In this document: positions 427 to 26,417 of the stretch, in pieces
Numbering within the stretch: position 1 is the first letter of the stretch
How the letters are laid out: every line of letters begins with the position of its first letter
Source: Hyphochytrium catenoides
Taxonomy: Eukaryota; Sar; Hyphochytriomycetes; Hyphochytriales; Hyphochytriaceae
Assembly (NCBI GenBank): GCA_900088475.1
Contig: FLMG01003792.1
Span: forward strand, 48,505-78,500
Reading direction: 5' to 3'
Length of the DNA stretch: 29,996 nt
Program-made: the position numbers and the translations under genes
The notes under the pieces: generated by a model
What the model was told of the DNA's origin: nothing
What the model saw: the letters and a program-made list of their open reading frames with translations, nothing else
The model's database searches: none

Positions 427-466
427 CTACAGATACATATGTTCTCTCATCATCAACTGCACTGCT
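427..466 (-). CDS. Exon 40: candidate terminal exon
   Basis: After a 63-nt intron, acceptor CGACAG|A gives a phase-2 join and a short tail 'AVQLMMREHMYL' before TAG. A second AG five bases further on (exon 461-344) also fits phase 2 and would give a different 38-residue tail. Reading straight through the donor would stop at once. All three ends change only the last residues. The gene might also continue beyond the window. Confidence 0.35.
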
Positions 467-3400
467 CTGTCGTTTTGAAGAGAAGCTTGACACTTAGCAA
501 CAGATCACCCTTCACGACCTCTAACTTACTGACGGAGTCTCGCAGAGGTGTCTCCGCCGGAGAGAAGGCGTGCCATCTGATCACGATAACTTATGTCTGC
601 ATCCCCGTTCATATAGCTTAAACCCGCAGCCTGTAGGGTCTGGCAGTAGTCGGGCTTCTCGATGACGTTGAGATCTACTAGGCTCCGGCATATGGAACTA
701 ATCCACATTGCCTTGATCGGCGTTGGCCTGAGAAGTCTCACTTCCACCTTGATCACTGACCTTGACCTCCCATTGTCCGCTAGGTTTGGCAAGCACAACC
801 CTTCAACCTTATTCAACAGAACGACCACGTGCTCCTCATTGAAACCAAATATCTGAGTGAGATGCAGGAGCACAGCATCATGCAGGAAGTGGAGCTGATC
901 CCGGCTGGTCCACCATGAGTCGGAGTTATGAGCAAAAGCGAAGGCAAACTTCGTCGCGATGAATCTGGCGGGAACACTTCTTGTCTGCATCAGGCGTTTC
1001 TGGCGGATTGTATCTCCTGGTATGCACCGCGTTGCTAGCTTACTCATGGGCTGGGACCTGTATAAATAGTCATCCGGCGATTAAAGACACTTAGAAGATA
1101 ACGAAACCGACATTGGAAAGACCGAGAAAATTATGACTATGGACAGACAGAAACCTTACCGGGTATAAATGAGTCGAACCACGCTGACCACTGAGCCGGA
1201 AGCTTGGTTTCCAGAGGTTTGTTGACCAGAGTCAATTCCTGGCTGCTGCGACGTCTTCCACTTGATAGGAAGAAGTTCAGACAGTCCCGGCTTGGGGCTT
1301 GAAGTGCTGCTGCTATTCATAGTACCAAGAAGGGGTGCTCTACTAGAGATAGTAGAGGGTCGTGGCTCCCACAGGAAACTAGATAAAGAATCTTCACTAT
1401 CCATCGATAGTGACTCGAGCACAAAGTCTTCCGCTACCTTGGAAGGGGCTGGCGGTAGAGGACTATGAAGAAGGTGGACAAGAAGAGTGACAGAACTTCC
1501 ACGTGTCAGATTCAGAGGCTCCGGCGTCTGGAATACCAACTCTTGGTCTCTCATAGGCAACAGACAGGAGAGGGTGAAGTTGACCCTTGCAAGGCCTTCA
1601 ACGTAGATAGTTCCTGTAGCCTTGACGCAAGCGCCTCCCTCCGGTCCCCATGCAGCTGGAATGCTGACTCCTTTGAGGGTAAGGTCACGCTGAGCACGTA
1701 ACGAATAAGCGACACGACGATAGCTCCAGCTTTGAGTCAAAGAAAACGGCGTGCGGTGGTTAAATAGAGACATGGCTGACCATAAGCCATCTACACTTTG
1801 ATGTTCCCTGTTCACAAAGCAGAGACAACGTGAGCCAGTAACACAAGGATTCCATGTCGGAGGCAATTACGCTCACCTTTCAATCATCAGACTAAGTGCA
1901 GGATAGCTGCTGACTGGCTGACCAGAATCGGGGCCAAGATTCGCGGGCAAGGAGTCAAATCTTCCTTGGACGTTTAAGAAACGGGCTCCAGAAATAATCA
2001 TCTCAGGTTGCCCTTGGGTAAGGCTGGTCGTTGCGCAAAGGACATTAGAAGTTGCTGTGATGAGCGAGTACCGTCGACCAGGAACTAGGTCCCTGGATAC
2101 TCCAGGGAAGCCACAAAGTCTTCCATCTACTTTTCTAGATGGGGACAGCTGTGAGACCCTGGCCATGGTTAGAAGTATTCCGTCCTCAAAAAGGCCAACG
2201 TTGGGCTCTACTGCGTAAGGAGGGACCCAGGGAATTGCCGAGAGTCTCGTTGGTGAAAGGTATTCTTGCTGGATGCAGATACCACTAAGCTTTGCAGGTA
2301 CGAAGAGATTAAAGTCTAAGGTCACATAGCCCTCGTTGCTTGAGACAGCGCAGGATGTTCCAGCAGGCAATGGGTTTGGTAGGCCCGAGTATGCTGTTCG
2401 AGGTGCTTCACTCAACATAGGGGCCTCTGGCCTCCTACGATTTAGCAGTTAAGGTGGCCATAAGTATGATGTCTTGATCAAGTAACATGAAGTGGTAAAG
2501 AGACAGCACAAAGGGCAAAACTAACCTTGTAAGGATGGGTGTCAGTGGACTTCCAGACTCTAGGTTGAGAGATGTGCCTAAAATGTCATCCTTGAAGCTT
2601 TGGGGACCAGAGAAGGTCCCAAAGGCATTGATAAAGGTGGAGTTAACTGAAGCCACTGATGCGGTAAAGCACCTATTGGATAGAACAATATAGATTGGAC
2701 CTGCTTGAAGTAAGATGGGCTCCGCGAAGTATTCGGCTGCACCCTCAAGAACCTGGCTTCTATTTGAAAGCGTTAGGCTTCCTAATGTTGGGAAGAAAGT
2801 CTTATTAAAAAATCGGAGCAGGGCCAGACTGGTTGATGTCCAGTCTTCTCCAATGCGGTAAGGAGGGGCTCCAATACCCAGACCTGTCACTAATGCTTCT
2901 TGCTTGACTGTAAATGCAGTAGCGGTCCAAGCTGCGCTGCATGTAGAAGTGTTAGTTGGCGAAGGTAGCCACGAAGAGAGGAAGCCAAAGGCCCGAGGTG
3001 TGGGCTGTGGTGGCTCTAATGCGACAATATCAAATAATGGTGCAGTGATGGGGCCGCAGGATTGAGTGGCCGAATAACCGCTGACCCCTGGTGTGTTAGA
3101 GAATGTGGACGTGTTGACGGCATCGCCTGTCTGGTTACTCTCAAAAATTCTCTGGCAGGAGAACGAAGCCCACCGCAATTTCATCTGAGAGGCGGTAGGA
3201 CCTGTCGCCGTCTCCCGATTCTCTACGAGTTCGAGGTACCGCATGGGCAAGACTGCAGTTAAGGAGTAGTGACTTCCGCCATTTAGTTGTGCAGATCCAC
3301 TTAGGCCGCTAAAGCGATAAGAATTTACGCGCTGGGAATCGGATGAGACATTGCTCTGGGCTAGGACTTTGCCTGTCATGGTCTCGTAGAGTCGAAGGGC

Positions 3401-6400
3401 TACTGATGCATCTCCCAAGCCTTCGCACAACAGGGGGCTTGCAACATCGAGAATTCCTAACCCTGTTACCGTAATGTTTGCGACTGGGACGAAGTCCATG
3501 CGAATCTCAGTGCTCTCTCGCACACACCGCGCCGCCGCGACCTTTGTTGGAGGTACGATATTGCCAATGATGGACTGCATCGCACTGTCACCACCATACG
3601 GAGCAGCAATGAATGGCGTTAGTAAGATGGCTGGAGAATCATCCAGACCTCTTCGACTTACCTCTTGGGCACGAAAGAGAATACCATGGATGGCGTGCCA
3701 CCGTCATTTACGCGCTTTGTTGGATCAAGCAGCTCAGCTGTGAGGTTGAAATGTGCTCGTTCTTCTGGTGTCTGTGGCAGGTTTACATAGCTATAGGAGT
3801 TCATGGTGTAGGGAGCTGAAGGACTTGCGCTAATGCCAAACGGAAGAGAGATATTAGGTAAAATAGCCCGCAAGTGGTATTGAAGTCCTCGAGTCAACAG
3901 CTTCCTTTCGATAGGCTCCAAGAAGACCGATCTTGCGCTGTCAGCCGTAGCTGAGTATCTGCTTACGTCCGATCGAGCCAACAGCTTCGAACCCTGGAGC
4001 AGCTCCACCCTGATGCTAGAAAGATTCGTACCTGTGGGCATCATCATAATACAGAAGGCTAAGCAACGAGGTATGGTCACCTTATTCCTTGGAGTCTACT
4101 AGTATCAAAACCTACCACTTGTATTGAAAAAATACGTGGGCACACCGAGGCCGGTTAAGGTTATGTCAGAAGTCGGGGTGAATTGCATCGCTCTCGCCAC
4201 AAAAACCATAGAAGCGTTCGACATCGGCAAGCCCCATCCTTGTGTGTGAGTGGTCTCTAGGAGATACTGCACGGAAAGATTGCCAAGGGGACGCTCCCTT
4301 GGGTATCTAAGATTGAAAAAGCAAAACGAGATGAGTATGGGCCCACGACTCATCGCCATCACGTTTCTTTCTCCATACCGGGTATAGATCGCCGACACAG
4401 GCGAGCAAGCTTGATAAGGCAATGCATTGTCCCACGATTGAGTCCAGAAGTCCCGTGGAAGACTGGTTGCCATTGAAGAAACGGCCATTCCGTACTCACG
4501 CTCATTGTTTGGTTCGATGGCTAATGGATGGAATTCTCCTAACACCGGGTCATACCTGTCTGAGCCCGCACAACTCAGTAGCACGGGCTCGTGCATAAGA
4601 GCAGCCATGAAGTACATTTGTCCACGTCTCAGTAGAAGAGGCGACTCAAAGGAGGTTACCAGTCGGTTTCGAGTGACGTCTGACCAGTCCCCTAGGTAGA
4701 CCGAAGCCAGCCGGGATCCGCTGATATAGGGTGCTGAGACCGAATAGGCCTCATAGATTCCAACGTGGTACGTCGGAGTTTGTGCCTCCATAGTAAACGG
4801 TAGAGCCACGGCTGCACCAGTGAGTAGAACATCCTGTAGCGGCGTGAACTGGTACCCTACAATCAGGCTCCTCTCTTCATGTAACTTAGGACCACTGAAT
4901 GGTACTATTGATGCAGGAGCAAGATACCCTTTAGGTTGATAATCGGGGCCGATGGCCTTGGATTTCCTGATGGTGATAGATGCGGAATGAAGTAGGAATC
5001 AGACATAAGTTATGGCGAGAAAAAATAAAAGTCGAGCTTATTATCTCTCAATAAGGTACGTACCGTGCAAACAAGAAGGTCAGTGGGACTTTGGGTGACT
5101 CAAGCACACTGCCAAGAGTAGTGGTGTTGTTATCTACACTTGAAGTCAACATTGTCACCATAGTATGTGTATAGTGTGTCACGGTGAGCTCGAAGGGCAG
5201 CACACCAGAAAGAGTGTAACGCAACCCAGGTTTAAGAGAGATTGACTGCCCCAAAGCACCATAGGCCATGTAGGAATTGGCTCCTTCATAGTCGAATGAG
5301 AGTGAATCTGACATAGAAGGCGGAGGCTCTATCGACAACGAGAAGGAGGTCAGTAACTTCCCGGATCCTTGCTCGCTCAACTGGAGGGCGACGTTCGTCA
5401 TGGCGGATTGAGTTAAGTTAGACCAACACCCTCCCGAGGGACTTGGAAGCACCGACCCAAAACTGGTGACCATTAGCTCTTGCTGCACAGTGAAGGTGAA
5501 CGAATAGCTGGTCTGACGCTGATTACATAGGTGCACACTGGCAAATTTGAGGGCCGCCTCGCCAACCGGACCAGGTGCATGTCTGATAGGAGCGGAAAGG
5601 GAATCACTTCACGAGGAGACTCGATCCTGCACCGTGACATCTTAGCTTACCTTCGGAATTTTATAGTTAGGACTGGCACCTCTACTTCATCCCGCAAACC
5701 CGGACCGGGGCAGAAGCCACTCCTAGCTGTCCTATTACCAGCATACTGCAGGACGAGTTGTGGATCTAAACTAGCGGGAAGAGAGCTTGTGCCCTGATAA
5801 TATGCTATCGTGAATGCCGTGGTTTGACCACGGAATTGGGGTGACCTCTCGACATGGCGAGGCCCAGAACGGAGATATTTTCCCGGAACAGTAGCGGCCA
5901 GATAGTACGTCGTACCAGCGTGAAGAGTAAAGGTTCCTGGAAGATGGTAGTACGCATAGTCGTCGCCTTCGTGAAGAAAGGCAGCGAGTACGGACAGTCT
6001 GAAGCGGGTAGACCCTCGAAGTACCAAATTCTCATCGTAGATCCCCAGCTCCAGCCTTCCCATGTCTACGCTCGGGCTCCCCAGTTGGTGGAAGGCGTCC
6101 TCAAGAGCTTCACGCAGCAGGCCTACAGCTAACATGGATGTTGATATCTCTGGTTTGACCTGAAGCAGGGCAAGAGTATGGACTGTCTGGAGATCCTTTC
6201 GCACGACGGGGAAGAAGCCCTTTTGATCAAGGAAAAGAGGTGTTCCGACCCCCGAATAGAAAGAGTTGGACCTAGGAGAAAAGCCAGAGAAACGTAAGGG
6301 TTATTGTAAGGGTCGGCAGCGCAACTCGTCATGCCTGCTTCTAACCTGGTATACATGAAGCCAGCGCCATTCCAGAGGCCAGATATGGCCCAGGGTGCAT

Positions 6401-9400
6401 TTCTCACAGCCGAGGTACAATTGAAGGATGTCCGCATGTCACATACAACGTCAAAGCGTATGGACTCCTCGGAGAACATTGACCATACTTGCGTTTGTGA
6501 CATCTGTATAGTCAAAGACAGAGATGTCCGCAGAGCATACCTGCGCCCTCGGCGCAGTCGCACCGGTGGCCTCACTGACATATACCTAAAACCTCTAATC
6601 AGTTTTCCTCTTCTTGAACTAAATAACCCCTCAGCGACCACTTGATTTTGGTCATCCACCATCACTACAGCTTGAGTATCTCTAGTGTGGTTGGTACATC
6701 CTAGGCAATTCTCCTGATTTAGATCTACCAGGCCCAGCGACGTTATAAGGATGTCTTCGTAAGGGTAAAAGTCAGTCGACATCAGCGGTCCAGCTAAGCT
6801 GTCCACCCTAATTACACTTGTATTCTGCATTGCTACTGCTTCAGTATCAAAGTCTTCATCTCTGTCGGAGGAAGACCTGACCAAGGAAAGAGCCAGTCAG
6901 AAGAATTAACGCCAAGCAACACAATTGAGCACTAGGTATCGTTTCAGACTTACCCGCCTCCGAAGGAGAGTTGTGGCACATAAGGCAGCAAGCACTGCGC
7001 GTTCCAGGTCAAAGAGGAGGTGACTGAACAAGAGGGGACAGAACATGTCCTCGACTCTCGGCGGAAGGCACTAATATTCATGCCGCGCACTCCCTCAGCT
7101 CTAACCGCGGCGTCCACCAGTTCCCAGTGTAGAGGTTTTGGGAGACCGCCTAGTTCTAGACCGCTACACCCTTCAAGGACTGAGGGGTAGCAACCAGATA
7201 GACCAAGTCGGTAATCGATCACCTTCACGTAATTGTTGCAGCCACTTGCCACATTCTGTGTAGCCAAGGTCATTGGAAGCTCAGCGGTCAGAGTATACGT
7301 GTATCCGGATTCCAAAAACAAGCTCCTGTTCAGGCTGAGATAATGACTGTAGGGGAACAGTGTGACGTTGACTAAGAGAGAGGGCGGTGATCCGCTCTTA
7401 TAGATTGAGATTGGAATGGCAGCGGAAATGAAGTCCTGCTGCAACTTCATCGTCCTGTCTGGAGTAGGGAGAGTGTAGGAGTTGATGAACCCTTCCCGCT
7501 TAAAGTACAATCCCTGCACCTCTATTGTTCCCTTTGGTACGATAAAATCATAGCCCACTTTGCTGGTATCTACGGAAAGCAGAACCACAGACGCTGACGC
7601 TGGAGGTGGAGCTGTTGGAGGTGGAGCCGTTGGAGGTGGGGCCCCACTGGGTGGTGGAGAAGGTTTTGACTGGGTATCATTACTGGGTGCCTCGCTGCCA
7701 TAATGATTTCATAGAGGTTTTGGGCTTTATTAGCTCCTTGGCATGGGGAAATTAAAAGAAAAGCCTTTCACAAACCTGGTAGGAAGATACGTGAATGTCA
7801 TCAAAGCAGCAGGGTCCAAGGTCCAGGTCGAGTTCTCCCTTGTGTACCACATCGCGGTGCTGGAGTAAGGGTCATTCGCATACAGCCAGTGGCTAATCCG
7901 GTGGCCGATCGTGATGTTCGGGTTGACCAGGAAAGACGCAGCCTGACGACTAGAGACATTGAAGACTGGGAGATTAGCAATTAGGAGGTATGAAGTATTT
8001 GCCAGCAGTTGCGGCGCGGGGGGATAGTAAGCCGGTCCGCTAAAGCCACTAGTCCCGGGATAAGTGTTGAACGAGTTGTAGGCGTTTGTCTCAGCCCTTC
8101 GAAATCTGCCTCCAGCCGCCTCTACTATCGGATCAACTACCTCAACCACAGCGCGCGCAACTTCATAACCATATAAAGCATTATAGATGGCAATAGTCAC
8201 GGGCCCATCCCAGCCTGAGGTTAATCCGGACGAACAATTATTCCATTGTGGCTCAACCACACCCAGCCCAGTGAGGGTCATATTCAAGCTTGGCCTGAAC
8301 TCGTATCCCAACAAGACTCTACCCGGCTCTAGAGGTGCTCCGCTGATGGGTTTATTTCCTATGCTGGAGCTGGAAGGGCAAGAGTCCAGTAGCAATTGGC
8401 CCATACGTCCAGCTGGAGTTCCCGATGGTTCTCCTGAGGGCCTGCAGAAGGGCAAGGGGACTTTACTTTGAACTACAGATCTTTGATGTATCGTATTGAA
8501 AGATGACAGGTTTACCTCACGATAACCATGCTAACCGCAGAGAGATTTTCTCTAGCTAGCAATAGTTCGGCATCCCCTTTTATTGGCCACCAAGAGGGAA
8601 TTTCAGCACTGTCAAGGCTTGAAGTCGTGTTAACTCTCGGCAGGGAGAAGAGAGTAGCATTGCCGACCCCCACAAGACTTGCTAAGGTTGACGTATTTAT
8701 CTCTCCTGCCGGTCCCAAGACCCCTCCATTGGAGATGTTTGCGAAAGTTGTTTGCCTGCGTCTCACAAAGGGAAGCAGAGCTAGAACGCCATAACGGCCT
8801 CCCGCTGGGAGAACCATCCCTGAGGGGAGGCCTCCCACATGCTGCATTTCCATGATCGCTGACCATCCACCTACCACGATGGATGCGAGAAGAGTCATGT
8901 TGCCACTATCCGTAAGGTTATAGACTCCAATTTTCCCATAGAGCTCACGAGCATTTGCTAAATAGGTTCCATTTCCAACGCAAATGTCACCTGAAGCTCT
9001 GTATAGTCCGAAACCCTTAAGGAAAACAGTGCTTTCGGTTGAAAAAGTGAAGCCAGAATAGACACCGGAGTGGACCTTGATGTGGCAGATATCAGGATTC
9101 CATCCAGTAGGGTTAGAAAGTGGGAATACGCTGCCGCTGCTCACCATTTTCGTGGTCGGTACCCTACAATAAGCCACAAGATTTGCGAAGTTAGTAGGAC
9201 TTACAGCGGATGCAGACGAGGACGGAAAGGGCGCTAAGCTAAGCTCGGTACCTGTAGTAGAGGAAGTCTAGGAGACCCTTTATAGATTCATTTCTGCAAA
9301 ATGATGCGAGACACGGCTGAAGGTTGAGGTTATACAATGTGTAGGGTAGACCATAATTGGCAGGTCCAGAGGACCCTAAGTCCTCGTAGCTATTTCGTGA

Positions 9401-18400: not shown

Positions 18401-21400
18401 GAGGAGTTGTGGAAACTGCCATATAAGGTGCTGCCTCGCTTGGTACTTCCAGGTCCGATGATGGTCGATAGAATAAGCTCCCCCTGCCAGTCATAAACTC
18501 CAATAACGCTAGACCATCTGGTTCTGTCCCGAAGTTCTTCCATAGTATCAGGGTCTGAGGTACAGTTCGTCCCATTGTTATTGTTCAAGAGATCGCTGTT
18601 CCATGACTTTGGAAGTGCGAAACCAACAGCGGACAGGTAAACATCCGAAAGAGGGACAAAGCTGAAGGCCACTACTGCTTCCTGAGGGATTGCACAAGCC
18701 TCAGTGAGCTCTAATCCATACAACGGCTGGCCCACCAGAAGTCCATCTCCGTAGGGCACCCTAAGGGATGGGATTATTTAGTACACTATTAATAGAACTG
18801 TTTTTACTAGAATAACCGTTTGCAACGACTTACTCTGTGTATAGCAGATCAACCATGGGTAGTGAGGCGGAATATGAGTATTGCCCCATCGTACCGAAGC
18901 TCCCGCCGTCTGCTACAGAAAACAACGGTGCGATGCTGGGTAGAGGATCACCTGGACTGGAGCCCCCCATGGGCGGGCCCTGTAACCACGAGTAAATATC
19001 CAGCAGCTCTGTGGTCTGACGTTGAGGCAATGAGAAAGTCCCGCCAATTCTGTAAGACACCCGGGCCACAATTCCGTAACGCCTCCCAGGGTAGATAAGA
19101 ATCGGTTCTTGCTCTAATGGGCTATACAGAACTGATGGAGAAGTATGGTCTACCCTCACTGAAGCTGTGGATCGATGGAATACGGTGGTTGAACCAAGCA
19201 AAACCGATCCCGCAGTAAGGTCATAGATCCCCACAGGGACTGCGGTCTCTAGTGGTGTCAAGCCCCACTCGAAGAAATAAGGACTTAGAACCCCAAGAGC
19301 TGTCACTTTAGTCACGACCTTGGGAAGGACCTGAAGTCCTACGAGGGAGCTGCCAGCAGGGTCAAGATAGCTTAGGCCTCCAGAATACACCCCATAGCGC
19401 ACCGGAGAATTGCCTTCAACGGTTCCTGGCGCGGGCCTTGAAAAAATAGAATATTGTCAACGAGAGCATTCGAGTTAGCAGACTAATGTAAAGGCGACTG
19501 GAACCGGCGGCAATCACGCACCTGGTAAAGAGGAAGGACACTGTCGGTGACGGAAGTTCGTTAGCTTGAATGTGGCTGTTATAAACGGTGTCCTGCGTAC
19601 TGTTAATGCCGTAGCCGTCGGCAAACTCAATGAAATCTCTCAAAGCAAAATGTGAGGAGAGCCTGGCCGAGAAAGCACCATCTGCCACTCTACGAGGCAT
19701 TCCGGGAAGTATTCTCATGACGATGCTGAACTCAATATCTGGCTCCAGCTCCAATGCGGGAAATAGAGCAGCGTAGTGGTAGCCATCTCTGACCTCGTTG
19801 ACCAGACTTACCGATGTCGAGGTCAAGAGAATTTGGGACTGGTAATCGATGAGGTTCACCTGTACCTGAGCAGGAGTAGCTCCGACCATGCATAGAGGGC
19901 AGTCTAGCTGAGAAGTTAGTAGCTCACTCCAGACCCCAAGGGCAGTTATCAGAGCTCTTCGCCTGGTGATGAACCTGAAGCCGACTTGTTGGCTTTCGGT
20001 CCAGGTGCCATTGAGCCAGGATAGTGTAGAAGCGGCTTCTTCAGGTGCAAGCACTCCTGGCTTCCCGGCAACGGATGGCCTTAAACTGTTTCAAGTAGTG
20101 GTCAACAACAAACGATAAAACGTCCATACGCATGGAAGGAAACAGAAAACTTACGCGCTGACTTGCAAAGTGGGCATATGAAATAGAGTAAAACCTTCCT
20201 CTAATGCAGCACTCTTAGTGATGGCTGGTGACAACTGCTCCCCATTCTGCGATGCGCCGCTATCGGAGCCAGTTGGCATAGTTCCATTAGCAGCATCTGA
20301 CAGGAGGGGCCACCATGGTGGAGCTATATTAGGATATCCATAGTGCTCCGCCAGCGGAAACCACTCTGCTGTGATGTTAGACCATCCACCTGTCAAAGGA
20401 TCAAACGTGGCATTACTCCGAGCGCCTAAACCTAAGCGGTAGGCGGAAACGTCCACCCCATGGCCGCCGGGATACTGACTGATTTTGCGATTGGTCAATA
20501 GAATCATGGGTAGTGAGGCTAGAAGCGTGTATGTCTTGCCAGCAGCTAATACTACCGCCCTTTCGAACCGGAGGCCATCTTGATGATCGGGTAGGATCTG
20601 ATGGGCAAGAAGCTGGTTGGAGGCAGTGTCATACAGCCAGATGTTAAGACTAGCATTGCGTAAAACGTCTCGGGAGCTGATCCCTCCCCCTCCTCCTACA
20701 CTACTATTGCTGCTGTTGACGTCCCACTCCATTATGCTGCGATTGAAATGCAGACCCCAACAGGATAAGGGGATTGTTCCGGTCACGGTGAAGTCATATC
20801 CGACTAAGTTGGGCGCTGATGTAAGGTAATAGGGGCCGGTCCACGCATTTTGTGGCGGAGGTGTTGGAACTGGAGCTTCCGTGGGGGGATAAGTGCTGTG
20901 ATACGTGAGGAGAATTTAGCCATAATTAGTATTGTTGTTGTTCAAATTCCGTCGATGATGAGAGACTTTGAAGGGCCACTTTCTTTGCTGGAGTTAGATG
21001 GACCAATGGGGCTGACAGGAGAAGAGACCTACCTATAACCTTCCAGCAACGGCACGATAAGACTATATGCCGTCCCGTACAGTGCGCTGTTACCTAAAAC
21101 TGTCGTGCCCATGTTCAAAGCAGGCTCTGAATGGTTCCAATAGGCCGGCAAGTCTCCTTCGTCAAGGTGAAGGACATTTCGAGCGTCGTTGGCCCCAAAC
21201 CTGTACGCTGTGACCACAATATTATCCTTGAACGGGACACTAACGTCTACCTCAGTTAGCACTGTGAAGGGAAGGGAAACAAGGATTGTATATAACACTC
21301 CACCCTGCAGAGTAAAGCTGACCGCATTGCGGGTTGAATATGGTGGTACCGAGCCATAGTAAACAGGATGAAAGTAGCCTGATGCCCTTGAGTAGACTGC

Positions 21401-24400
21401 AATGTATGGATATTGCCCGGCAGTCATTATCTTCTCGGTCAAAGTGGTGGTCTGTCCAGTTGTCAAGTCTCGCAGCAAGGCACCTTGGTTATAGAGAAGC
21501 CCATCCACCTTGAAGTCACTCGTGCTTGTGACATAAAAATCGTATCCGAGCAGCGATGGTTGCGAGAGCTCGAAGTATGCACCTGGCACACCGGGACCTG
21601 ACGGGAATAGCCTGATAAAGGGGAGAATGTTCAGATAGGGCTGGACAACCAGGAAAAAGCAACAAGAGCCTTACCGGTCAAATGCTACTGCCACTGAGCT
21701 TAGCAGCTGGTGAGAGTTATCCGGAATAGGTTGGCTTTCGGTGCTTTGCAGATTTGATGCCAGTCTTTCGCTATTTATTTCGAGTGGAAGAGCCATTGGC
21801 AATTCAAGAGCTTCCAACATGGTACGGTAAACGTTGAAAGACCGAGCATATCCGACTCCGTTCCACCAGATATCCTCTGAGAAGCCTTCGATGACCCTAG
21901 CGAAAGGTAAATTTCCAATTACGGCGTAGTCACCACCGGCCCGTAGGTGAACTTTCGATGCCAGTCCTTCTAACTGCTGCCCACCATAGAGAGGAGACCA
22001 GCTGCCAACTGTGACGGTGGCTATTAGGGTAAAGACTCTTGCTGGTGAGGTTGCGTTCGAGGTGACATTGTAAAGGCCAACTTGCGAAATAGTGTTCGCC
22101 ATGTTAGGGTAGTATACCCAGTTGAACCTACAAATATCCTCCTTGAAGGATGGTACGGTGATCCCCAGTGCTGACACCTCGATATCCTCAGTAGGGGAGA
22201 ACCAAAATCCAGAATAGACACCAAATTCTGCCTTCAAAGAGCAGGATGGTAGTGCCGCCGGCAAAGGCGGCGGCAACAGCAGCTGCAAAGCGGGCGACAA
22301 AGGGCTGGAAATAGGCGGTGAGATCCTAGGATGGTGCCACGGATGGTTAATAAAGGTGAAGAGGAACAAGAAAGGAATCAGTATTGACACCAGATACTTA
22401 GAAGAGAGCTCGATCATCGTTAAGCGACAAACCGTTTGGGATAATCGTCTGTTATAGAATGGTGACAAAGTTGCCTTACCTGACATATAAGACATCTAAT
22501 AATTCCTCAATAGCAAAGTCTGGTTCGCAGTCTGAAAAAGGCCCTATCGCGCAGCCATCACCAAGCGGCAAAGCTGAGAGTGATTGAGGAAGCGACGAAT
22601 AACCCCTTGTTTGTGCCTCTGCCTCCGAGTCGAAGGTAATGTATCGCCTGGTCATATGCACCAGAGGGCTGGTGTCTGAGCTTGAGTTACTCGCGTTTCT
22701 AGTGTTGTTGAGGAAGAATGGCAGGGAGCCAACAAGAGTGTACAGTTTTCCTGGTCGTAGGACTAGACCTGAAGAATTGTGCATGGCGCTGTAGACCACA
22801 TCCTGCTTTGTCTGATTGTTGATAGCAGAAGAAGAACTAAATCCTCTGGGGCTTGCGGGCCCGACTTGTGTCCAATCTATCAGCTGGCCTAGGTCGTCGT
22901 AAAGTCCTACTGTGGCAGCCCATCGGGCGCTGAACCGCATGGACTCGACATCATCTTCCTCCAACGAGCATGAGCTATCATTGCCTTCCGCAGGAGAGTG
23001 GCTACTTGCCATCCAATCGGGAAGTACAAAGCCAACAGCGGAGATGTACATATCAACTTGCGCCACAAAGCTGAAAGCCGCTAGCGTTCCTTTGGCAAGC
23101 CCACATGATTGGGCAGACGAGTTCCGGCTCCCGAATAACGGTTGGCCAAAGATAGCGTTGGCCTCGTCTGGCCTGGGGTAAGCATGGAGTTAGTCAGGTG
23201 TTAGAGCAAGCTCACAAACCCGCGCACCTAGTGTAAAGGAAGTCGACCATGGGCAAGGACTCTGAATAGGTGTACTCAAATCCGGCTCCTGTCGTGTCGA
23301 AGTTCTGACCGACCGGATACAGACTGGCAAATGGAGGAAGGGTATCTCCATTGCTTTGCGTCCCTGGGAGGCTTATACTTCCTTTGAGACGAGAGAAGAC
23401 AACAATTGGACCCTTCTGATGAATCGCGGTGGTCCCAGGTATGCTGTACGACATAAAAGCCACAATGCCATAGTACCGCCCAGGAAACAGAGTTATGGGT
23501 CCATTCTCTAGGGCATCATAGACAACCCCTGGCGAGGTGACACCTGAACTAAAGGAGGCTGCCGAAGGATGAAAGACCTTGGCAGACGCAAGCAAGATGC
23601 CACCAGCGCTAAGGTCATAGATGCCAACGGGAATGGCAGACTCAGGAGGCGACAGTTCGCTGCCCCACAGGTTCCACGGGCTGAGAAAACCCACAGCTGA
23701 TATCATGGTCTGAATTCTTGGGGTGATCTGCCAGCCCATGAGGGAGCTTCCTTCTGGATTGATGGACAGCGTGTTGCCGCCAAAGGAAGGAGTGTAAAGC
23801 AGGGGTGACTCTCCTTGTAGCCCACCGGTGGGTCGTCTATCACAAAGTATTCCGACCAGTGGCAAATACATATGAGATATGAATAACATCAGGTGGATTG
23901 CGGTTAGCACTTGCTACAAGTGGCTTTTCTTAAGTAGTACCTTACCGTGTGTAGAGGAAGGAAACTGCAGGATAGACTTCGTTCCCTTCGAAATTAGGGT
24001 CGACCTTGGGCTCAGTTTCCCATAGGGCTGAGAGGTTATGACTGAGTGATGACCCCTCAAGGCATTGGCCCATGATGAACTGCCTGCCAAGAAGGTCGGA
24101 GGTAGTGGTGGAGCTATTCAGCATAAACCTTGGCATTCCAGCAGCGCTGGTCAACACAATGCCGTACTCCGTACTGGCCTTGAGCTCCACGGGAGGGAAA
24201 ACGGCAGCGTAGTAATAGCTAGCTATGATGTCATCCCCAAAACTCACGTCGGCAGCTGCAAGGATAAGGTTTGACTCGCGACTTATCAGCTCTACTCTGA
24301 CGCCTGGAGGACCGACAGTGTCGTTGCCTTCAGTGGGCGCGAAGGGTGGTAGCTGATCCCAAGACAAGAGCTGATTCCAGACTCCCAAAGCAGTCAACAA

Positions 24401-26417
24401 TGCCCCTCTCTTTGTCCAGAAACTGAACCCAACACGAGTGCCAGTGGTCCATGTTCCGTTGACAAATGGGGGAGAGACTGCACTGGTAGGGTTGTCGTCT
24501 CCTAGCGATGCCACCAAGCCGGGGGTACCAGCTACCTTTGGCCTCGGCCTTGCAGAATTTGTTTAACCGAGTAGCAGGAGTCCGTGGGTAAGGATTGCAC
24601 ACGAGGACCATGTCAGCGATTCGAATGGTTGTCTTACCTTGCCATTAGAAGGTTCGGAACGTGAAACAGCGTCATTCCCTCAGCCAATGCAGCCTCCTTG
24701 TTTAGAACAGAAGCCATCTCACCTGCTCCGGTATAGCTGCTATCAGTCTCGTGTTGATGGTCGACATTGTCCGGCAAGTAGGCCCACCAAGGTGGCGTCT
24801 CTCCAGGGTAGCTCTGGGTGGTGGCAATGGGAAAAGAGTAGACAGGCCAAAATGACCACTGCTCCCCGGTGGCAGGACCGTACGACGCATTACTGACGGA
24901 CGGTTGCAGACCGAAGCGGTATGCAATAATGTCCAGGTTATTACTTCCTGTGCCGTATTCAACTACTTGGCGATCTGTTAGGAGAATCATTGGAAGGGAC
25001 GCCACAACGGAGTATGCCTTTCCGGCTCCAAGGTTCACGGGCTTGGTAAATCTAACTCTTTCTTGAAAGGCCTCTAACACCTGATGGGCTAGGACCTGGC
25101 CCGTGCCTGTGTCATATACCCAAACGTTCAAAATGGTGTTACGCAAAGTGTCCCTTATAGATTGTATATTTGTCTGGATGTCGCCTTCCATCGGTGACCA
25201 TTCGGCAATACTTCGGTTGAAGTAGAGACCCCAGCACCTCATGGGGATGGACCCAGTAACAGTGAAGTCATAGCCAACGAGATTAGCCTCAGGACTCAGG
25301 TAGAAGGGTCCTCTCCATGACGCAGGACTTTCTGTCACTGGCAACCCACTTATCCTGCGGCACAAGGAGAAGGCAGGAACAAGGAGGTAATCAGCTCAAG
25401 TATGAAGTAGGTGCTGCAATGCAATCTGGTGATCTTCCGAGTGAGTCTCACCTTAAACTCTGGAATGCCGGGATGAGAAGTCCAGCCTCCGATCCACAAT
25501 TGCAGCTAGTCACGATGGCATTGGAAGCAATCACTGACGGAGGATCAACATCATTCCAATACCCAGGAAGAAAGCTCTCTTCAACATTACTGAAATCGTC
25601 CAGAAACCTTGGGTCGTTTTCTCCGAGCCTGTAAGCTGAGATGCCGATGTCGCTCGCCGATATGTTAGGCTCCAGATTGGGCTTTGTAAGAATTGTGAAA
25701 GGCAGTCTCAACAGCAAGGTGTAGTTGTTATAAGGATACAAGCTAACAGCATCAAGAGAAGAGAGCTCTTGGTAGGGCGAGAAGACACGTCTTGCAATCT
25801 CCTGGAGGTTGGGCGCACGCACGTAAAGTGCGAATTCAATGTACTGCCCCATGGACTCAAGCTTGGCACCCAAAGACCTCACTTCGCCATTGGTCACATC
25901 TTTCACAGCCACTCCTTGGTTGTAGATCAATCCCTGTAATTGAACTTCACTAGCAGTGTCTTGCACATAGAAGTCCAAACCAACGATTGAGGGATTGTAG
26001 TCAACGATGAAGGCGTCCGCGACGCTGCACAAAAGGATGCAAACAGGTGTATGAGCGCGGCAAGCGACGACATATCATATGTGAAAGGAGAGAGAAAGAA
26101 CGAACCTGTCGGCGGGTGAAGGTGGCTCAGTGGTGGACTGTGAGAGCACGACCTGGGATAACAATTAAATTAGCTCTCAGTAATAGAAAGTTAGCCAACA
26201 AAAGGAAACTAACCGTTCCATGCTCAATGCTGAGAAGGTGGGCAAAGCACAGTGCCCAAAGCCAGGTAGTGGCTCGAAGTTTGGTCCTATAGAGAGTGGT
26301 GGCAACAAGATAAGTAACGACCACAGCAACATAGTTGGTCTCCCTTCTTGTACAATAACAGAAGTTGCTGTTGAAAGACTTTGGGTATTAATCTCACCTT
26401 CTGCTCAATGGCTCCAT
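427..26417 (-). CDS. Giant multi-exon gene: secreted/surface protein with about 35 tandem beta-modules
   Basis: This entry covers the whole gene; its exons are listed separately. I assembled about 40 exons by matching GT/AG sites to reading phase, and every join keeps one open frame. The summed coding length is about 22.7 kb (about 7,570 residues). The N-terminus is hydrophobic and signal-like. It is followed by 35 related modules with the core pattern 'GF.F', 'ALG', 'VGIYD..G.LL' and 'L.PG..Y....LP'. A non-module exon closes the protein. The core resembles uncharacterised beta-sandwich modules of bacterial extracellular proteins (the DUF4082 type and unnamed domains of PEP-CTERM proteins); this is pattern memory, not a search. 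Many N-x-S/T sites and the lack of internal membrane segments fit an extracellular protein. Role unknown; adhesion, scaffold or cell wall is a guess. The extreme 5' and 3' exons are the least certain parts. Confidence 0.8.
530..1057 (-). CDS. Exon 39: C-terminal non-module domain
   Basis: 528 nt, phase 2 in (TACAG|G) and phase 2 out at CA|GTAAGT, a near-perfect donor. The sequence is unlike the modules. It has an alpha/beta feel, with a helix-like 'DQLHFLHDAVLLHLTQIF', a strand 'EEHVVVLLNKVEG', a second strand 'SVIKVEVRLL' and a helix 'WISSICRSLVDLNVI'. This order recalls SEA-like ferredoxin-type domains near the C-terminus of some surface proteins, but no diagnostic motif is present. Without splicing, a TAA follows immediately after 'LRQ'. 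Confidence 0.65.
1160..1807 (-). CDS. Exon 38: last, degenerate module S with Ser/Pro stalk
   Basis: 648 nt, phase 2-2. A weak module core ('VAYSLRAQRDLTLKGVSIP', 'IYVEGLARVNFTLSC', 'LTRGSSVTLLVHLL') lacks the VGIYD and LPG signatures. The second half is Ser/Pro/Gln-rich and unstructured-looking, like a stalk. It still ends in 'VVRLIYTR' at CG|GTAAGG, the canonical module boundary. This is the last recognisable module. Confidence 0.75.
1877..2434 (-). CDS. Exon 37: irregular module T
   Basis: 558 nt, phase 2-2. Motifs are 'TSCAVSSNEGYVTLDFNLFV', 'AKLSGICIQQ', 'VGLFEDGILLTMARV' and 'LVPGRRYSLITATS', with a tail ending 'LSLMIER'. The first hairpin again has a cysteine on each side. It contains little else recognisable and matches none of subtypes A to G closely. 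Confidence 0.8.
2526..3584 (-). CDS. Exon 36: two fused modules U1 and U2
   Basis: 1,059 nt, phase 2-2, the only exon with two modules. U1 has 'ARCVRESTEIRMDFVPVANI', 'TVTGLGI', 'LLCEGLG', 'VALRLYETMTGKVLAQ' and 'LNGGSHYSLTAVLP', and appears to end near 'PLFDIVAL' (about 3016). U2 follows directly, with 'AFTVKQEALVTGLGIG', 'SLALLRFFN' and 'LLQAGPIYIVLSN', ending 'PILTR'. I see no GT...AG intron at the internal junction. U1 retains the Cys pair. Intron loss between two module exons is the simplest explanation. Confidence 0.82.
3662..4031 (-). CDS. Exon 35: second part of module V
   Basis: 370 nt, phase 1 in (CCACAG|GT) and phase 2 out. It resumes the module as 'GTNLSSIRVELLQGSKLLA', followed by 'LTRGLQYHLRAILP' and a Ser/Pro-rich tail ending 'MVFSFVPKR'. 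Together with exon 34 it makes a module of normal length. Sequons NLS, NIS and NLT are present. Confidence 0.77.
4116..4306 (-). CDS. Exon 34: first part of module V
   Basis: 191 nt, phase 2 in and phase 1 out. It encodes the linker 'RYPRERPLGNLS' and the first strands of a module ('MQFTPTSDITLTGLGVP'), then stops at 'FFNTS' with donor G|GTAGGT. This is the only module whose core is split by an intron. The donor is confirmed by the matching phase-1 acceptor of exon 35. Confidence 0.75.
4379..4966 (-). CDS. Exon 33: irregular module W
   Basis: 588 nt, phase 2-2. Motifs are 'LIVGYQFTPLQDVLLTGAAV', 'YHVGIYEAYSVS', 'LRRGQMYFMAALM' and the canonical ending 'SAIYTR' at CG|GTATGG. The following 72-nt intron is a multiple of three without a stop, so retaining it would keep the frame. 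I place the exon end here because of the YTR ending and the phase-2 acceptor CTTAG|A downstream. Confidence 0.75.
5064..5582 (-). CDS. Exon 32: irregular module Z
   Basis: 519 nt, phase 2-2 (acceptor TATCAG|A). Motifs are 'HLCNQRQTSYSFTF', 'ELMVTSFGSVLP', 'GGCWSN', 'VALQLSEQGSGKLL', 'LKPGLRYTLSGVLPF' and the tail 'PLTFLFAR'. Cysteines flank the first hairpin as in the E, F and G modules. The post-core tail is very short, about 35 residues. Confidence 0.82.
5651..6182 (-). CDS. Exon 31: irregular module Y
   Basis: 532 nt, phase 1 in (GACAG|TC) and phase 2 out. Motifs are 'STSMLAVGLL', 'RLELGIYDENLVLRG', 'LHAGTTYYLAATVP' and the tail 'VLTIKFRR'. It lacks the N-terminal linker and first strand of other modules; these seem to be supplied by, or lost with, the tail of exon 30. 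The exit donor AG|GTAAGC is strong. Confidence 0.72.
6272..6876 (-). CDS. Exon 30: irregular module X
   Basis: 605 nt, phase 2 in and phase 1 out. It is the first module outside the six-type register. Motifs are 'STDFYPYEDILITSLGL', 'AVVMVDDQNQVVAEG' and 'LRRGRRYALRTSL'. A C-x2-C ('NCLGC') sits after the second strand. The exit at CTA G|GTCCAA is the weakest donor I use in the gene. I chose it because its phase matches the next exon and because the 'SLAFLL' tail ends there. Confidence 0.7.
6954..7694 (-). CDS. Exon 29: module B5
   Basis: 741 nt, phase 2-2. The entry linker is an imperfect proline repeat ('APPPTAPPPTAPPP'). The core is 'VGYDFIVPKGTIEV', 'QGLYFKREG', 'IPISIYKSGS', 'LESGYTYTLTAELPMTLAT', 'VIDYRLGLS'. 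FNRS is lost (FKRE). It is the last module in register with the six-module repeat. The tail has several cysteines and ends in a Gly run at GG|GTAAGT. Confidence 0.85.
7776..8441 (-). CDS. Exon 28: module G5
   Basis: 666 nt, phase 2-2 (acceptor CTGCAG|G, entering 'RPSGEPSGTPAG'). Motifs are 'SCPSSSSIG', 'VLLGYEFRPSLNM', 'TGLGVVEPQWNNC', 'VTIAIYNALYGYEV' and 'LLANTSYLLIANLP'. The Cys pair matches G3 and G4. The tail resembles that of G4 ('VNPNITIGHRIS' against 'VGSNITVGSRLS') and ends 'FTYLPTR'. Confidence 0.86.
8516..9163 (-). CDS. Exon 27: module F4
   Basis: 648 nt, phase 2-2. Motifs are 'DICHIKVHSGVYSGFTF', 'FLKGFGLYRAS', 'DICVGNG', 'KIGVYNLTD', 'VVGGWSAIMEMQHVGG' and 'LPAGGRYGVLALLPFVRR'. 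The Trp-Ser signature of F modules is kept as 'GGWSA'. It ends 'VSMVIVR' and closes super-unit 4, the last complete six-module unit. Confidence 0.86.
9252..9935 (-). CDS. Exon 26: module E4
   Basis: 684 nt, phase 2-2. Motifs are 'SCGVAESVETGFSF', 'YIAAMGVASPVAW', 'GVCDEEN', 'ARWSSILGIYDARG', 'VGPGSGRR' and 'LRKGERYTIVGRLPYF'. The tail has the shortest cysteine loop of the E set (C-x4-C, 'CLASFC'), then 'GLLDFLYYR'. Sequons include NTS and NES. Confidence 0.86.
10052..10648 (-). CDS. Exon 25: module D4
   Basis: 597 nt, phase 2-2, the same length as D3. Motifs are 'RPATGSVEGES', 'TAVGVLSPVTVYG', 'ESAVPVGIYDMTSG', 'GSTKIFHRS', 'LYPGRRYAVTALVSY', 'NERL' and the tail 'WLPIVDILYAR'. It aligns with D3 almost without gaps, apart from the first 25 residues. 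Confidence 0.87.
10741..11280 (-). CDS. Exon 24: module C4
   Basis: 540 nt, phase 2-2. I chose the acceptor GCGTAG|G because it gives the phase-2 join and the C-type opening 'RLRTAVAGEN', parallel to C3. A stronger-looking TTAG 20 bases upstream would break the frame. Motifs are 'SGITFWPTRSILL', 'TALGASEYFF', 'VVVSVWEVQRN' and 'MRPDTEYAIVVEAP'. It is the most diverged C module; NGTW has become NTSG, which still contains a sequon. It ends 'SSFLYTR'. Confidence 0.83.
11352..12146 (-). CDS. Exon 23: module B4
   Basis: 795 nt (265 codons), phase 2-2, the longest single-module exon. A long Gln/Thr/Pro linker leads to 'VAGYDFTVWG', 'FGLEFNRTI' (the B-type sequon retained as NRT), 'LWLYETMTGASLA', 'LTPGKSYSVLVRLPMVLLT' and 'VSGYRFGVD'. 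The tail carries three cysteines ('GVCMDMSVNGTC' and nearby) not found in other B modules. It ends 'PRLFVDR' at AG|GTACGT. Confidence 0.86.
12211..12891 (-). CDS. Exon 22: module G4
   Basis: 681 nt, phase 2-2. Motifs are 'HSCNPDTRN', 'VIIGYEFTLSTSLNV', 'TGLGIAEPLWTC', 'IRVGLFDKYAGRIL', 'LQPNRIYSLVANVP'. The Cys pair is placed exactly as in G3. A second Cys-containing stretch ('GSCAYESS') follows the core. Sequons include NAS, NVT and NIT. It ends 'FSYLPPLPR'. Confidence 0.86.
12972..13604 (-). CDS. Exon 21: module F3
   Basis: 633 nt, phase 2-2 (acceptor GGCAG|A). Motifs are 'DICHIRAQNGSYSAFTF', 'FIKGFGVALPP', 'EVCRLGN', 'NLGLYNLTD', 'MIGPWSSDINGMQQAGG' and 'LPEGGSYGVAAVLPFARA'. Phe replaces Leu in the usual ALG/SLG motif, here and in F4. 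The tail is Trp/Ser-rich and ends 'VSILFSR'. It closes super-unit 3. Confidence 0.86.
13689..14399 (-). CDS. Exon 20: module E3
   Basis: 711 nt, phase 2-2 (acceptor TTGTAG|C, split Ser codon). Motifs are 'ACYVPEETLTGFSFV', 'NPCIDDKEG', 'VKWSSIMGLYDDGG', 'VVGPTD' and 'LLKGQKYTLVGVLPFRL'. The usual 'SAVG' strand has drifted to 'TEMG'. The tail has C-x6-C ('CSDSPGNC') and 'GLLNMMLIR'. It contains an extra Ser-rich loop before the L-x-G-x-x-Y strand. Confidence 0.86.
14501..15097 (-). CDS. Exon 19: module D3
   Basis: 597 nt, phase 2-2. The first third reads 'RSAAGTLSGKSPLWY' and then a Gln-rich 'LQQAACFF' before 'TALGIVSPW'. Core motifs are 'ESAVPVAVYDLTAGS', 'GSTNVFHRS' and 'LLPGRRYAILALVSY'. 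It shares 'NERL' after the last core strand with D4 but not with D1 or D2. This fits super-units 3 and 4 being closer relatives. Confidence 0.86.
15180..15710 (-). CDS. Exon 18: module C3
   Basis: 531 nt, phase 2-2, the shortest exon in the periodic part that holds a whole module. Motifs are 'LRPSVSGHS', 'NGTWKGGLITGFSF', 'TLLTALGVWEDYF', 'VSLYAQQQGGILLANVTV' and 'YAAVLPAIQLMAGAEYAVIM'. The tail is aromatic and short, ending 'SVLYTR'. Sequons NGT and NVT are present. Confidence 0.86.
15786..16508 (-). CDS. Exon 17: module B3
   Basis: 723 nt, phase 2-2. A proline-rich linker ('PTPTVPPPLPDGN') and 'GPFYL' precede 'MVAGFDFSIMDDRPW', 'SISGFDFKRQ', 'IPLWIYDTTSGS', 'LLPGRTYSVLVAVPALLLT' and 'VSAYRLAPES'. 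The FNRS sequon of B1 and B2 has become FKRQ. The tail is rich in Asn/Ser/Gly and ends 'PAIWTAR'. The split entry codon is Gly. Confidence 0.86.
16596..17252 (-). CDS. Exon 16: module G3
   Basis: 657 nt, phase 2-2, entered at CTAG|A as 'RRPIPPSGD'. This is the first G module and occupies the slot held by A in super-units 1 and 2. Motifs are 'GCPRTETATD', 'LLLGYNFKPLTDIVV', 'TSIGIAEPLWNC', 'AITVAIYNDHTGVEV' and 'YTLVVNLPVPP'. Cysteines before the first strand and right after 'EPLW' form a pair conserved in G4 and G5. It ends 'TYQKLQPSG'. Confidence 0.86.
17329..17994 (-). CDS. Exon 15: module F2
   Basis: 666 nt, phase 2-2. Motifs are 'ICALPVPYGFLSGFTFV', 'STLGVIMPS', 'PLCRLNG', 'SQVGVYGL', 'TIGPWSPTIGMQQQLE' and 'LQAGKLYAIAGSLPFVRV'. 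The 'GPWSP' and 'MQQ' signature is specific to F modules. Its second and fourth fifths align with F1. It closes the second super-unit and ends 'AFAMFNR'. Confidence 0.86.
18107..18760 (-). CDS. Exon 14: module E2
   Basis: 654 nt, phase 2-2. Motifs are 'ACAIPQEAVVAFSFV', 'YLSAVGFALPKSW', 'RTRWSSVIGVYDWQG', 'IGPGS', 'LRADSTYTVVGLLPVHF'. An Asn run ('NNNNGTNC') carries the second Cys of the pair and a sequon. The tail has C-x6-C followed by 'GLLDLALTR', parallel to E1. The split codon at entry is Glu (GA|G). Confidence 0.86.
18834..19436 (-). CDS. Exon 13: module D2
   Basis: 603 nt, phase 2-2 (acceptor TTCAAG|G). Motifs are 'GSSLVG', 'TALGVLSPYF', 'ETAVPVGIYDLTAGS', 'GSTTVFHRS', 'IYPGRRYGIVARVSY' and the tail 'SLPMVDLLYTE'. 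Glu replaces the final Arg. D modules are the best conserved of the subtypes; 'VPVGIYDLTAG' or a close variant is present in all four. Confidence 0.87.
19522..20079 (-). CDS. Exon 12: module C2
   Basis: 558 nt, phase 2-2. Motifs are 'PSVAGKPG', 'NGTW', 'QVGFRFITRRRALITALGVW', 'YHYAALFPALEL', 'FSIVM' and 'MPRRV', in the same order as in C1. The acceptor is ambiguous. An AG six bases upstream (exon from 20085) keeps the frame and adds two residues. A 'CPLC' motif in the loop after the second strand is absent from the other C modules. The exon ends 'SFLFTR'. Confidence 0.85.
20155..20895 (-). CDS. Exon 11: module B2
   Basis: 741 nt, phase 2-2, with a split Ser codon at entry. A proline-rich linker ('PPTEAPVPTPPPQ') precedes 'GPYYL', 'NLVGYDFTVTGT' and 'SCWGLHFNRSI'. 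A low-complexity Asn/Ser/Gly insert ('SSNSSVGGGGG') sits in the next loop. Then come 'IWLYDTAS', 'LAAGKTYTLLASLPMILLT' and 'VSAYRLGLG'. It ends 'LQVSA' at a donor GC|GTAAGT, so the split codon is Ala, not Arg. Confidence 0.86.
21033..21611 (-). CDS. Exon 10: module A2
   Basis: 579 nt, phase 2-2. It opens the second super-unit. Motifs 'SLLGYDFYV', 'VDGLLYNQGA', 'YIAVYSRASG', 'LQGGVLYTILVSLPFTVLT' and 'VTAYRFGAND' align with A1 along the whole length. The tail 'IVPLLEGYR' replaces the usual YTR ending. Only these two A modules occur; the equivalent slot in later super-units is taken by subtype G. Confidence 0.86.
21675..22325 (-). CDS. Exon 9: module F1
   Basis: 651 nt, phase 2-2, after the longest intron I see (154 nt). 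It begins with a Ser/Pro/Leu linker ('LLLPPPLPAALPSC'). Subtype F follows: 'GVYSGFWFSPTEDIEV', 'SALGITVP', 'ICRF', 'QVGLYNVTSNAT', 'TVGSWSPLYGGQQLEG', 'LRAGGDYAVIGNLPFARV'. The Cys pair brackets the first two strands. It closes the first six-module super-unit and ends 'VAVAFDR'. Confidence 0.86.
22480..23172 (-). CDS. Exon 8: module E1
   Basis: 693 nt, phase 2-2. Subtype E motifs are 'SCGLAKGTLAAFSF', 'YISAVGFVLPDW', 'RWAATVGLYDDLG', 'VGPAS' and 'LRPGKLYTLVGSLPFF'. A Cys before the first strand and another after the second ('SSCSLEE') form the pair seen in all E, F and G modules. The tail has C-x7-C followed by 'ELLDVLYVR'. There are several sequons (NDS, NQT, NSS and a cluster NNT/NAS/NSS). 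The 5' intron is the shortest internal one, 55 nt. Confidence 0.87.
23228..23836 (-). CDS. Exon 7: module D1
   Basis: 609 nt, phase 2-2 (acceptor GATAG|A, donor ACTAG|GTGCGC). Subtype D motifs are 'SAVGFLSPWNLWG', 'AIPVGIYDLSAGGILLAS', 'VFHPS', 'GPITLFPGRYYGIVAFMSY' and the terminal 'SLPMVDFLYTR'. This is the clearest example of the module core. The second half has little recognisable sequence. Unlike the E, F and G modules it has no cysteine pair around its first hairpin. Confidence 0.88.
23946..24548 (-). CDS. Exon 6: module C1
   Basis: 603 nt, phase 2-2, starting at GCAAG|G so that the split codon is Arg followed by 'PRPKVAGTPG'. Subtype C hallmarks are 'NGTW', 'RVGFSFWTKRGALLTALGVW', 'VRVELISRESNLILA', 'YYYAAVFPPVEL' and 'EYGIVL', then 'MPRFM'. 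It ends in 'AVSFLYTR'. Sequons include NGT, NDT, NSS and NLS. The 'TALGVW' motif is shared with C2 and C3. Confidence 0.87.
24638..25354 (-). CDS. Exon 5: module B1
   Basis: 717 nt, phase 2-2. Subtype B opens with a proline-containing linker, then 'GPFYL', 'NLVGYDFTVTGSIP', 'CWGLYFNRSI', 'VWVYDTGTGQVLAHQ', 'LGAGKAYSVVASLPMILLT' and 'IAYRFGL'. The FNRS sequon follows the second strand and recurs in B2. The long tail contains 'AALAEGMTLFHVPNL', nearly the same as in B2. This supports descent of super-units 1 and 2 from one recent parent. Confidence 0.87.
25452..26024 (-). CDS. Exon 4: module A1
   Basis: First module, 573 nt, phase 2 at both ends. Subtype A is marked by 'VGLDFYV', 'LQGLIYNQG', a pre-strand 'YNNYTLLLRLPFTILT' and 'ISAYRLGEND'. 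The last of these links subtype A to subtype B. N-glycosylation sequons are NYT and NIS. The tail has a C-x-C ('SCNCGS') and ends 'LLIPAFQSL' before AG|GTGAGA. Its best match by eye is exon 10 (A2), which lies 4.4 kb downstream in the transcript. Confidence 0.85.
26106..26152 (-). CDS. Exon 3: short Ser/Thr/Pro linker
   Basis: A 47-nt exon (phase 0 in, phase 2 out) between TTATCCCAG and GACAG|GTTCGT. It encodes 'VVLSQSTTEPPSPAD' plus two bases, a low-complexity linker of the kind that follows a signal peptide. It joins the first module in phase 2 through an 81-nt intron. The acceptor is clear, and the frame agrees with every downstream exon. Confidence 0.65.
26214..26367 (-). CDS. Exon 2: hydrophobic N-terminal segment
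   Basis: In the frame that joins the modules this exon encodes two hydrophobic stretches, 'YVAVVVTYLVATTLY' and, after a basic 'RTKLRA', 'TTWLWALCFAHLLSI'. Together they look like a signal peptide or signal anchor. It ends in phase 0 at ACG|GTTAGT, a strong donor, and a 61-nt intron follows. The second frame over the same DNA starts at ATG 26332 and also looks like a signal peptide, so which frame is used at the N-terminus is not settled. Confidence 0.55.
26398..26417 (-). CDS. Exon 1 of giant gene (candidate start exon)
   Basis: Twenty nucleotides from an ATG encode MEPLSR plus two bases, followed by a good donor (AAG|GTGAGA). It joins exon 2 in phase 2 through an intron of only 30 nt, much shorter than the other introns of this gene. 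I chose it because the exon 2 frame has no ATG between its upstream TAA (26388-26390) and the module exons. A competing start is the ATG at 26332 in another frame; see the findings. Confidence 0.35.

Follow-up and report, generated by a model that had tools for sequence, protein, structure and literature searches.

We examined a 29,996-nucleotide stretch of the Hyphochytrium catenoides genome (assembly GCA_900088475.1, contig FLMG01003792.1, positions 48,505 to 78,500, forward strand; this whole stretch is called the window here), whose minus strand carries a predicted giant gene running from 26332 to 526 in 37 exons and 36 introns. A preliminary description had proposed a single minus-strand gene of about 35 one-exon beta-modules; a gene of this kind, with the count of 35 confirmed and mostly one module per exon, is supported by intron phase, reading frame, and module homology. 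The thirty-odd open segments on which it was built are readily recovered: between 1160 and 26024, 33 segments with no stop codon and a length of 170 residues or more lie on the minus strand and 0 on the plus strand; dinucleotide shuffles of the same stretch (n = 100) gave a mean of 0.80 and a maximum of 4. A splice search left free in phase assigned phase 2 to 34 of the 36 exons that it called between 26024 and 1160. The final model also contains hand edits guided by open frames and neighboring modules: one needless intron was merged into exon 28, the starts of exons 7, 19, and 34 were shifted, and the first and last exons were rebuilt. The first exons (1 to 7) and last exons (44 to 46) called by the search itself had neither phase nor module support and were dropped. 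In the final model, 35 of 36 introns are phase 2 and one is phase 1; the chance of 35 of 36 introns falling in one given phase, at one-third each, is 5e-16. The idea of one exon per module holds for 32 of the 35 modules and fails for M31, which is cut by the phase 1 intron, and for M32 and M33, which share an exon. The codon split at the module start encodes arginine in 25 of 35 modules. The introns are 55 to 189 bases long (median, 84); an in-frame stop is present in 33 of 36, retention would shift the frame in 25 of 36, and 1 of 36 can be read through.

These features bear on whether the modules belong to one gene or to several adjacent genes with a few modules each. An internal promoter is compatible with the sequence, but in-frame splicing is feasible at all junctions, and introns this short leave so little spare space that there is hardly room for gene ends and starts between modules. 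We therefore consider several genes very improbable and infer one transcript across the locus.

The gene reads through the window from right to left, with all features on the minus strand. Exon 1 (26214..26332), picked by hand for its ATG, hydrophobicity, and phase, encodes a hydrophobic, signal-like start, MLLWSLLILLPPLS, and ends in phase 2. It is followed by block 1 (exons 2 to 7, modules M01 to M06, types A to F; 21675..26024), block 2 (exons 8 to 13, M07 to M12, A to F; 17329..21611), block 3 (exons 14 to 19, M13 to M18, A to F, with a second subtype in slot A; 12972..17252), block 4 (exons 20 to 25, M19 to M24, A to F; 8516..12891), and a diverged block 5 (exons 26 to 31, M25 to M30, A to F; 4379..8441). 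The incomplete block 6 (exons 32 to 36, M31 to M35; 1160..4306) is strongly diverged, and its modules are assigned to types A to E by position. It contains the two halves of M31 (4116-4306 and 3662-4031) on either side of the sole phase 1 intron, as well as the exon shared by M32 and M33 (2526-3584). Exon 37 (526..1057) encodes a C-terminal domain of a different kind (~176 residues) and ends in a TAA stop at 526-528; a Pfam scan of this domain gave no match. The ends of the gene are less sure than its body. The preliminary description had set them at 26417 and 427, whereas in our model the start lies at 26332 and the stop codon at 526-528; an end at 427 is possible via a small extra exon, for which exon 37 would have to be left through a potential donor at its end. 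The sequence beyond the 3' side of the gene is hidden, as the 10 kb to the left of the window (contig positions 38505 to 48504) are almost all N.

Overlooked in the preliminary description was the order of the modules, which is a cycle of six types, A-B-C-D-E-F, comprising five full turns plus five modules. Mean pair scores between modules at offsets of 6, 12, and 18 are 69, 50, and 36 bits, compared to 8.8 to 16.5 bits at all remaining offsets as far as 22, and the best partner lies at a multiple of six for 31 of 35 modules. The mean pair score at multiples of six is 47.7 bits; the best of 5,000 order shuffles reached 27.0, and 0 of 5,000 reached the observed value. The modules form one family: profiles trained without a given slot recover all 35 modules at an E value of ≤0.01, and 34 of 35 outscore the best of 700 shuffled decoys, the exception being M35. 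Mapped onto a maximum-likelihood tree, the six slots require 9 label changes, where 5 is the minimum; shuffled labels require 23.3 on average, and 0 of 200 shuffles came down to 9. Many of the late modules sit on long branches, and their placement is unsure. The modules are ~160 to 265 residues long and have a long C-terminal part. Blocks 1 to 5 each span 4.1 to 4.4 kb, with block 1 encoding 1,282 residues. Slot A is of two kinds: M01 and M07 cluster with slot B, and M13, M19, and M25 form a separate group, which suggests partly separate histories for blocks 1 and 2 and blocks 3 to 5. In blocks 3 to 5, slot A (16596-17252, 12211-12891, and 7776-8441) looks as if the module type had been swapped with the six-fold register kept.

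Within blocks 1 to 4, modules of the same slot are 24 to 51% identical, i.e., they differ at 49 to 76% of aligned residues. They are thus not misassembled copies of one another, and all modeled exons read open from end to end, which argues against a decaying gene. The divergence of blocks 5 and 6 and the contig end 3.7 kb upstream of the gene start could be taken as signs of decay or of an assembly artefact, but we regard either as extremely unlikely.

The predicted product is 7,514 residues long, close to the ~7,570 given previously, with a mass of 812 kDa and a pI of 5.3; it consists of the 35 modules and the distinct C-terminal domain. It contains 115 N-glycosylation sequons, 2.4 times the chance number (48.4 ± 6.1 in 1,000 shuffles; maximum, 69), and the reversed motif occurs 50 times. 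No membrane-helix-like hydrophobic stretch was found after the start; the best 19-residue mean is 1.75 and lies within the modules. Because the sequon excess is strong and the start is hydrophobic, the secreted role suggested in the preliminary description is supported, and the product is likely a secreted glycoprotein. In blocks 1 to 4, slot E modules have four cysteines each and slot F modules two. In a simple propensity count, some seven runs of the family consensus look like strands and none looks like a helix. The modules likely adopt a beta fold, which may be a beta-sandwich.

The sequons are unevenly distributed. Slot D carries 1, where the density over the whole protein would predict 18.3 (P = 2e-7), and the other slots carry 19 to 30 each; the counts for D in blocks 1 to 6 are 0, 0, 0, 0, 1, and 0. 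Slot D is also the best-conserved type, with a mean identity of 46% in blocks 1 to 4 compared to 29 to 36% for the remaining slots; M10 (18834..19436), which has no N-glycosylation site, is an example. Both the sequon excess and the bare slot D are plain features of the predicted protein. Slot B modules, for their part, tend to begin with proline-rich sequence: the first 30 residues contain 4, 9, 11, 5, 9, and 2 prolines in blocks 1 to 6 (protein average, 2.3), a pattern clear in 3 or 4 of the 6 blocks. In block 5, this start (PPPTA) is encoded by a 15-base tandem repeat at 7601..7643.

A conserved, bare slot D is what might be expected of a multivalent lectin-like adhesin in which every block would attach to a sugar or surface through its slot D and the remainder would serve as a glycosylated spacer. 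Such a reading would also fit the likeness of the family consensus, described below, to DUF4082 and choice-of-anchor R, which we take to be bacterial extracellular families. We recognized no binding residues, however, and we think an adhesin of this type unlikely.

The earlier statement that the protein belongs to no described family largely holds in our searches. Pfam scans took in 32 of the 35 modules (all except M31, M34, and M35) and NCBIfam scans 29, and no single scanned module exceeded a cut-off of either collection. Among the individual hits, TIGR02141 in M07 (E value of 7e-4; 19 bits, far below the cut-off of 182.6) was set aside as chance, as were PF23571 (0.17 in the module scan and 0.11 for the slot C consensus) and PF15728 against the family consensus (0.09). 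PF21199 (laminin IV B), presumably another extracellular beta-sandwich, was too weak (0.0075 in 1 of 29 modules and 0.1 in M27). The 144-residue family consensus, in contrast to the single modules, resembles two families distantly: DUF4082 (PF13313; residues 6 to 93; E value, 2.4e-4; 21.5 bits, below the gathering cut-off of 28.4) and choice-of-anchor R (NF041539; residues 38 to 133; E value, 3e-4; 20.8 bits, below the cut-off of 30). The slot C consensus matches the same two (1.6e-3 and 0.028, respectively), the other six slot consensuses gave no match, and neither did one reversed and one shuffled consensus control. Among 29 single modules, there was one DUF4082 match (0.13) and one choice-of-anchor R match (0.061), both at chance level. 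Since a consensus query inflates scores, we treat these similarities as a hint that the fold may be distantly shared and not as membership; the modules here, at ~160 to 265 residues with their long C-terminal part, also differ from both families. PF13313 searched over the H. catenoides genome gave no match, but the controls were silent as well.

Three queries of a database of 5.8 billion proteins returned no relative: 29 modules (E value of ≤0.01, with the 8,000 candidates sharing the most words scored), four slot D modules (≤0.01; 8,000 candidates scored), and five slot E modules (≤10; 6,440 candidates scored). Giant spliced eukaryotic relatives would escape this search, because it requires shared 5-residue words and similar length. 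In genome contigs, the slot D profile found 26 pattern stretches, of which 0 were confirmed; in viral contigs, 0 of 22 stretches for this profile and 0 of 9 for module M08 were confirmed. Profile searches with 29 modules found nothing in the PDB at an E value of ≤1 and nothing beyond chance level in PHROGs. At an E value of ≤10, PDB profiles gave three matches for the slot E set and one for the slot D set, all at chance level, and further alignment gave none. Among plasmids, M05 had one match at an E value of 0.9, and the family consensus had none at ≤1. In the organism's own assembly (42.5 Mb, 1,105 contigs), M10 (4 matches) and M08 (7 matches) revealed no second locus among the best candidates scored. 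A literature search with most subscription journals outside its scope found no account of this gene.

On present evidence, the gene belongs to none of the known systems that it most resembles, namely, titin, the brown-algal ROCO genes, and the Lpv glycoproteins, the last being set apart by description only. The closest exon plan is that of the ROCO leucine-rich repeat (LRR) exons, which carry one repeat per exon, are phase 2, and are shuffled in frame (PMC11378527). The same plan is seen here in 32 of 35 modules and 35 of 36 introns. Whereas the ROCO exons encode 23-residue LRRs in a GTPase, those described here encode modules of ~210 residues that belong to a giant protein, likely a secreted one, and no LRR or ROC-COR domain was matched by Pfam in the 32 scanned modules or the C-terminal exon. 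In the C-zone of titin, same-position domains of different super-repeats are more alike than neighbors, most clearly in the central repeats (PMC10665226). This position-wise likeness across a higher-order unit, known from the A-band super-repeats, is found here as well, but it fades only at the C-terminal end, and here the start is of a secretory type and sequons are present. Titin is built of immunoglobulin (Ig) and fibronectin type III (FnIII) domains and is intracellular; no Ig or FnIII family turned up in the 32 modules (of 35) scanned with Pfam. Comparable in size are Giant1-5 of Apilactobacillus kunkeei, described in PMC12863079 as extracellular surface proteins of 3,000 to 8,000 residues, with an N-terminal beta-solenoid in Giant1-4; these are bacterial and lack the exon plan.

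Among related organisms, the Lpv glycoproteins of Phytophthora may be the closest kind of product. They are glycoproteins of >400 kDa in the large peripheral vesicles of zoospores, and PnLpv is kept in these vesicles (PMC3869178); the product predicted here has 812 kDa and 115 sequons. It could be a giant storage glycoprotein of zoospore vesicles, retained in the secretory pathway rather than reaching the surface. The genome appears to be that of a flagellate, with 27 dynein heavy chain matches, the best of them nearest to axonemal dyneins in the PDB. Its chitin synthase frame scores 702 bits with PDB entry 7wjm, which we take to be the Phytophthora sojae enzyme, compared to 391 for 7xs6 and 377 for 7stl, presumably the fungal enzymes of yeast and Candida. 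On the strength of this one gene, the genome would be that of an oomycete-like stramenopile with flagella. On the other hand, Lpv repeats are near-identical copies of ~178 residues, unlike the same-slot modules of blocks 1 to 4, and a slot that is conserved yet free of sugars points to binding more than to storage in bulk. We find a storage role doubtful.

A chitin synthase gene is present in this genome, in an open frame of >800 residues; a dynein heavy chain match lies in an open frame of 4,383 residues, and actin-family matches occur in short pieces. Long intron-free frames beside intron-rich genes seem odd for an oomycete. No light-harvesting or cadherin match was found in the genome, and an alga or a choanoflagellate as the source was set aside. 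At the right end of the window, positions 29294-29990 are repeated on contig C85 in two pieces 2.2 kb apart there, one of 541 bases (96% identical) and one of 162 bases (94%), and this repeat may be a mobile element close to where the contig ends. The minus-strand open frame within it (29429-29860) had no Pfam match.

Taken together, our general picture is of a secreted, segmented, N-glycosylated rod that would be titin-like in its repeat logic only, and we hold it with about even confidence. The exon plan, phase, frame, module homology, and period of six are direct observations; the beta-sandwich fold, secretion, the rod shape, a hinge, a role for slot D, and an adhesive or coat function are features we infer from sequence. 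Several points weigh against this picture. The hand edits favored phase 2, although the free search came out nearly alike, and the GT-AG intron ends hold by construction. Four of 35 modules (M28, M31, M32, and M33) are out of the period-six register by best partner, and the late modules are far diverged. The hydrophobic stretch of the hand-picked start exon lacks a basic n-region, and strand periodicity alone is weak, as 59 of 2,000 column shuffles were equally high. The sequon dip in slot D was spotted post hoc, after all slots had been viewed. Finally, the start of slot F is also proline-rich (9, 6, 2, 4, and 5), and a hinge once per six-domain unit is therefore weakly supported and offered as a suggestion only.

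In the segmented-rod model, the product of one gene would be a secreted, N-glycosylated chain in which 35 beta-sandwich-like domains precede one C-terminal domain of a different kind. Each six-domain unit would make up one segment of the rod, and ahead of slot B it would have a proline-rich start that is probably flexible; five of the types would bear sugars, and the bare, conserved slot D would provide a contact with itself, the wall, or a ligand at a fixed interval. As for origin, growth by in-frame copying of phase 2 exons, and then of six-exon blocks, is well supported by the sequence. Single phase 2 exons would have been duplicated to give the six domain types, after which the whole six-exon unit (~4.3 kb, ~1,290 residues) would have been duplicated; such copying would keep the frame because phase 2 introns sit at nearly every module edge. 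A more specific hypothesis, which we consider quite improbable, is that the protein is an extracellular ruler or self-assembling filament in which one slot D contact per unit sets a spacing of ~1,290 residues, an independently arisen counterpart of titin made from a new domain family by six-exon block copying.

The locus is a clean record, left by nature, of the assembly of a giant protein, with single phase 2 exons copied first and six-exon blocks next, and with the order of types held over five turns while same-slot modules drifted to 24 to 51% identity in blocks 1 to 4. If the product is indeed an extracellular rod with one contact per turn, it would constitute a second, independent origin of the titin-style super-repeat "ruler," outside cells and in an unnamed domain family.
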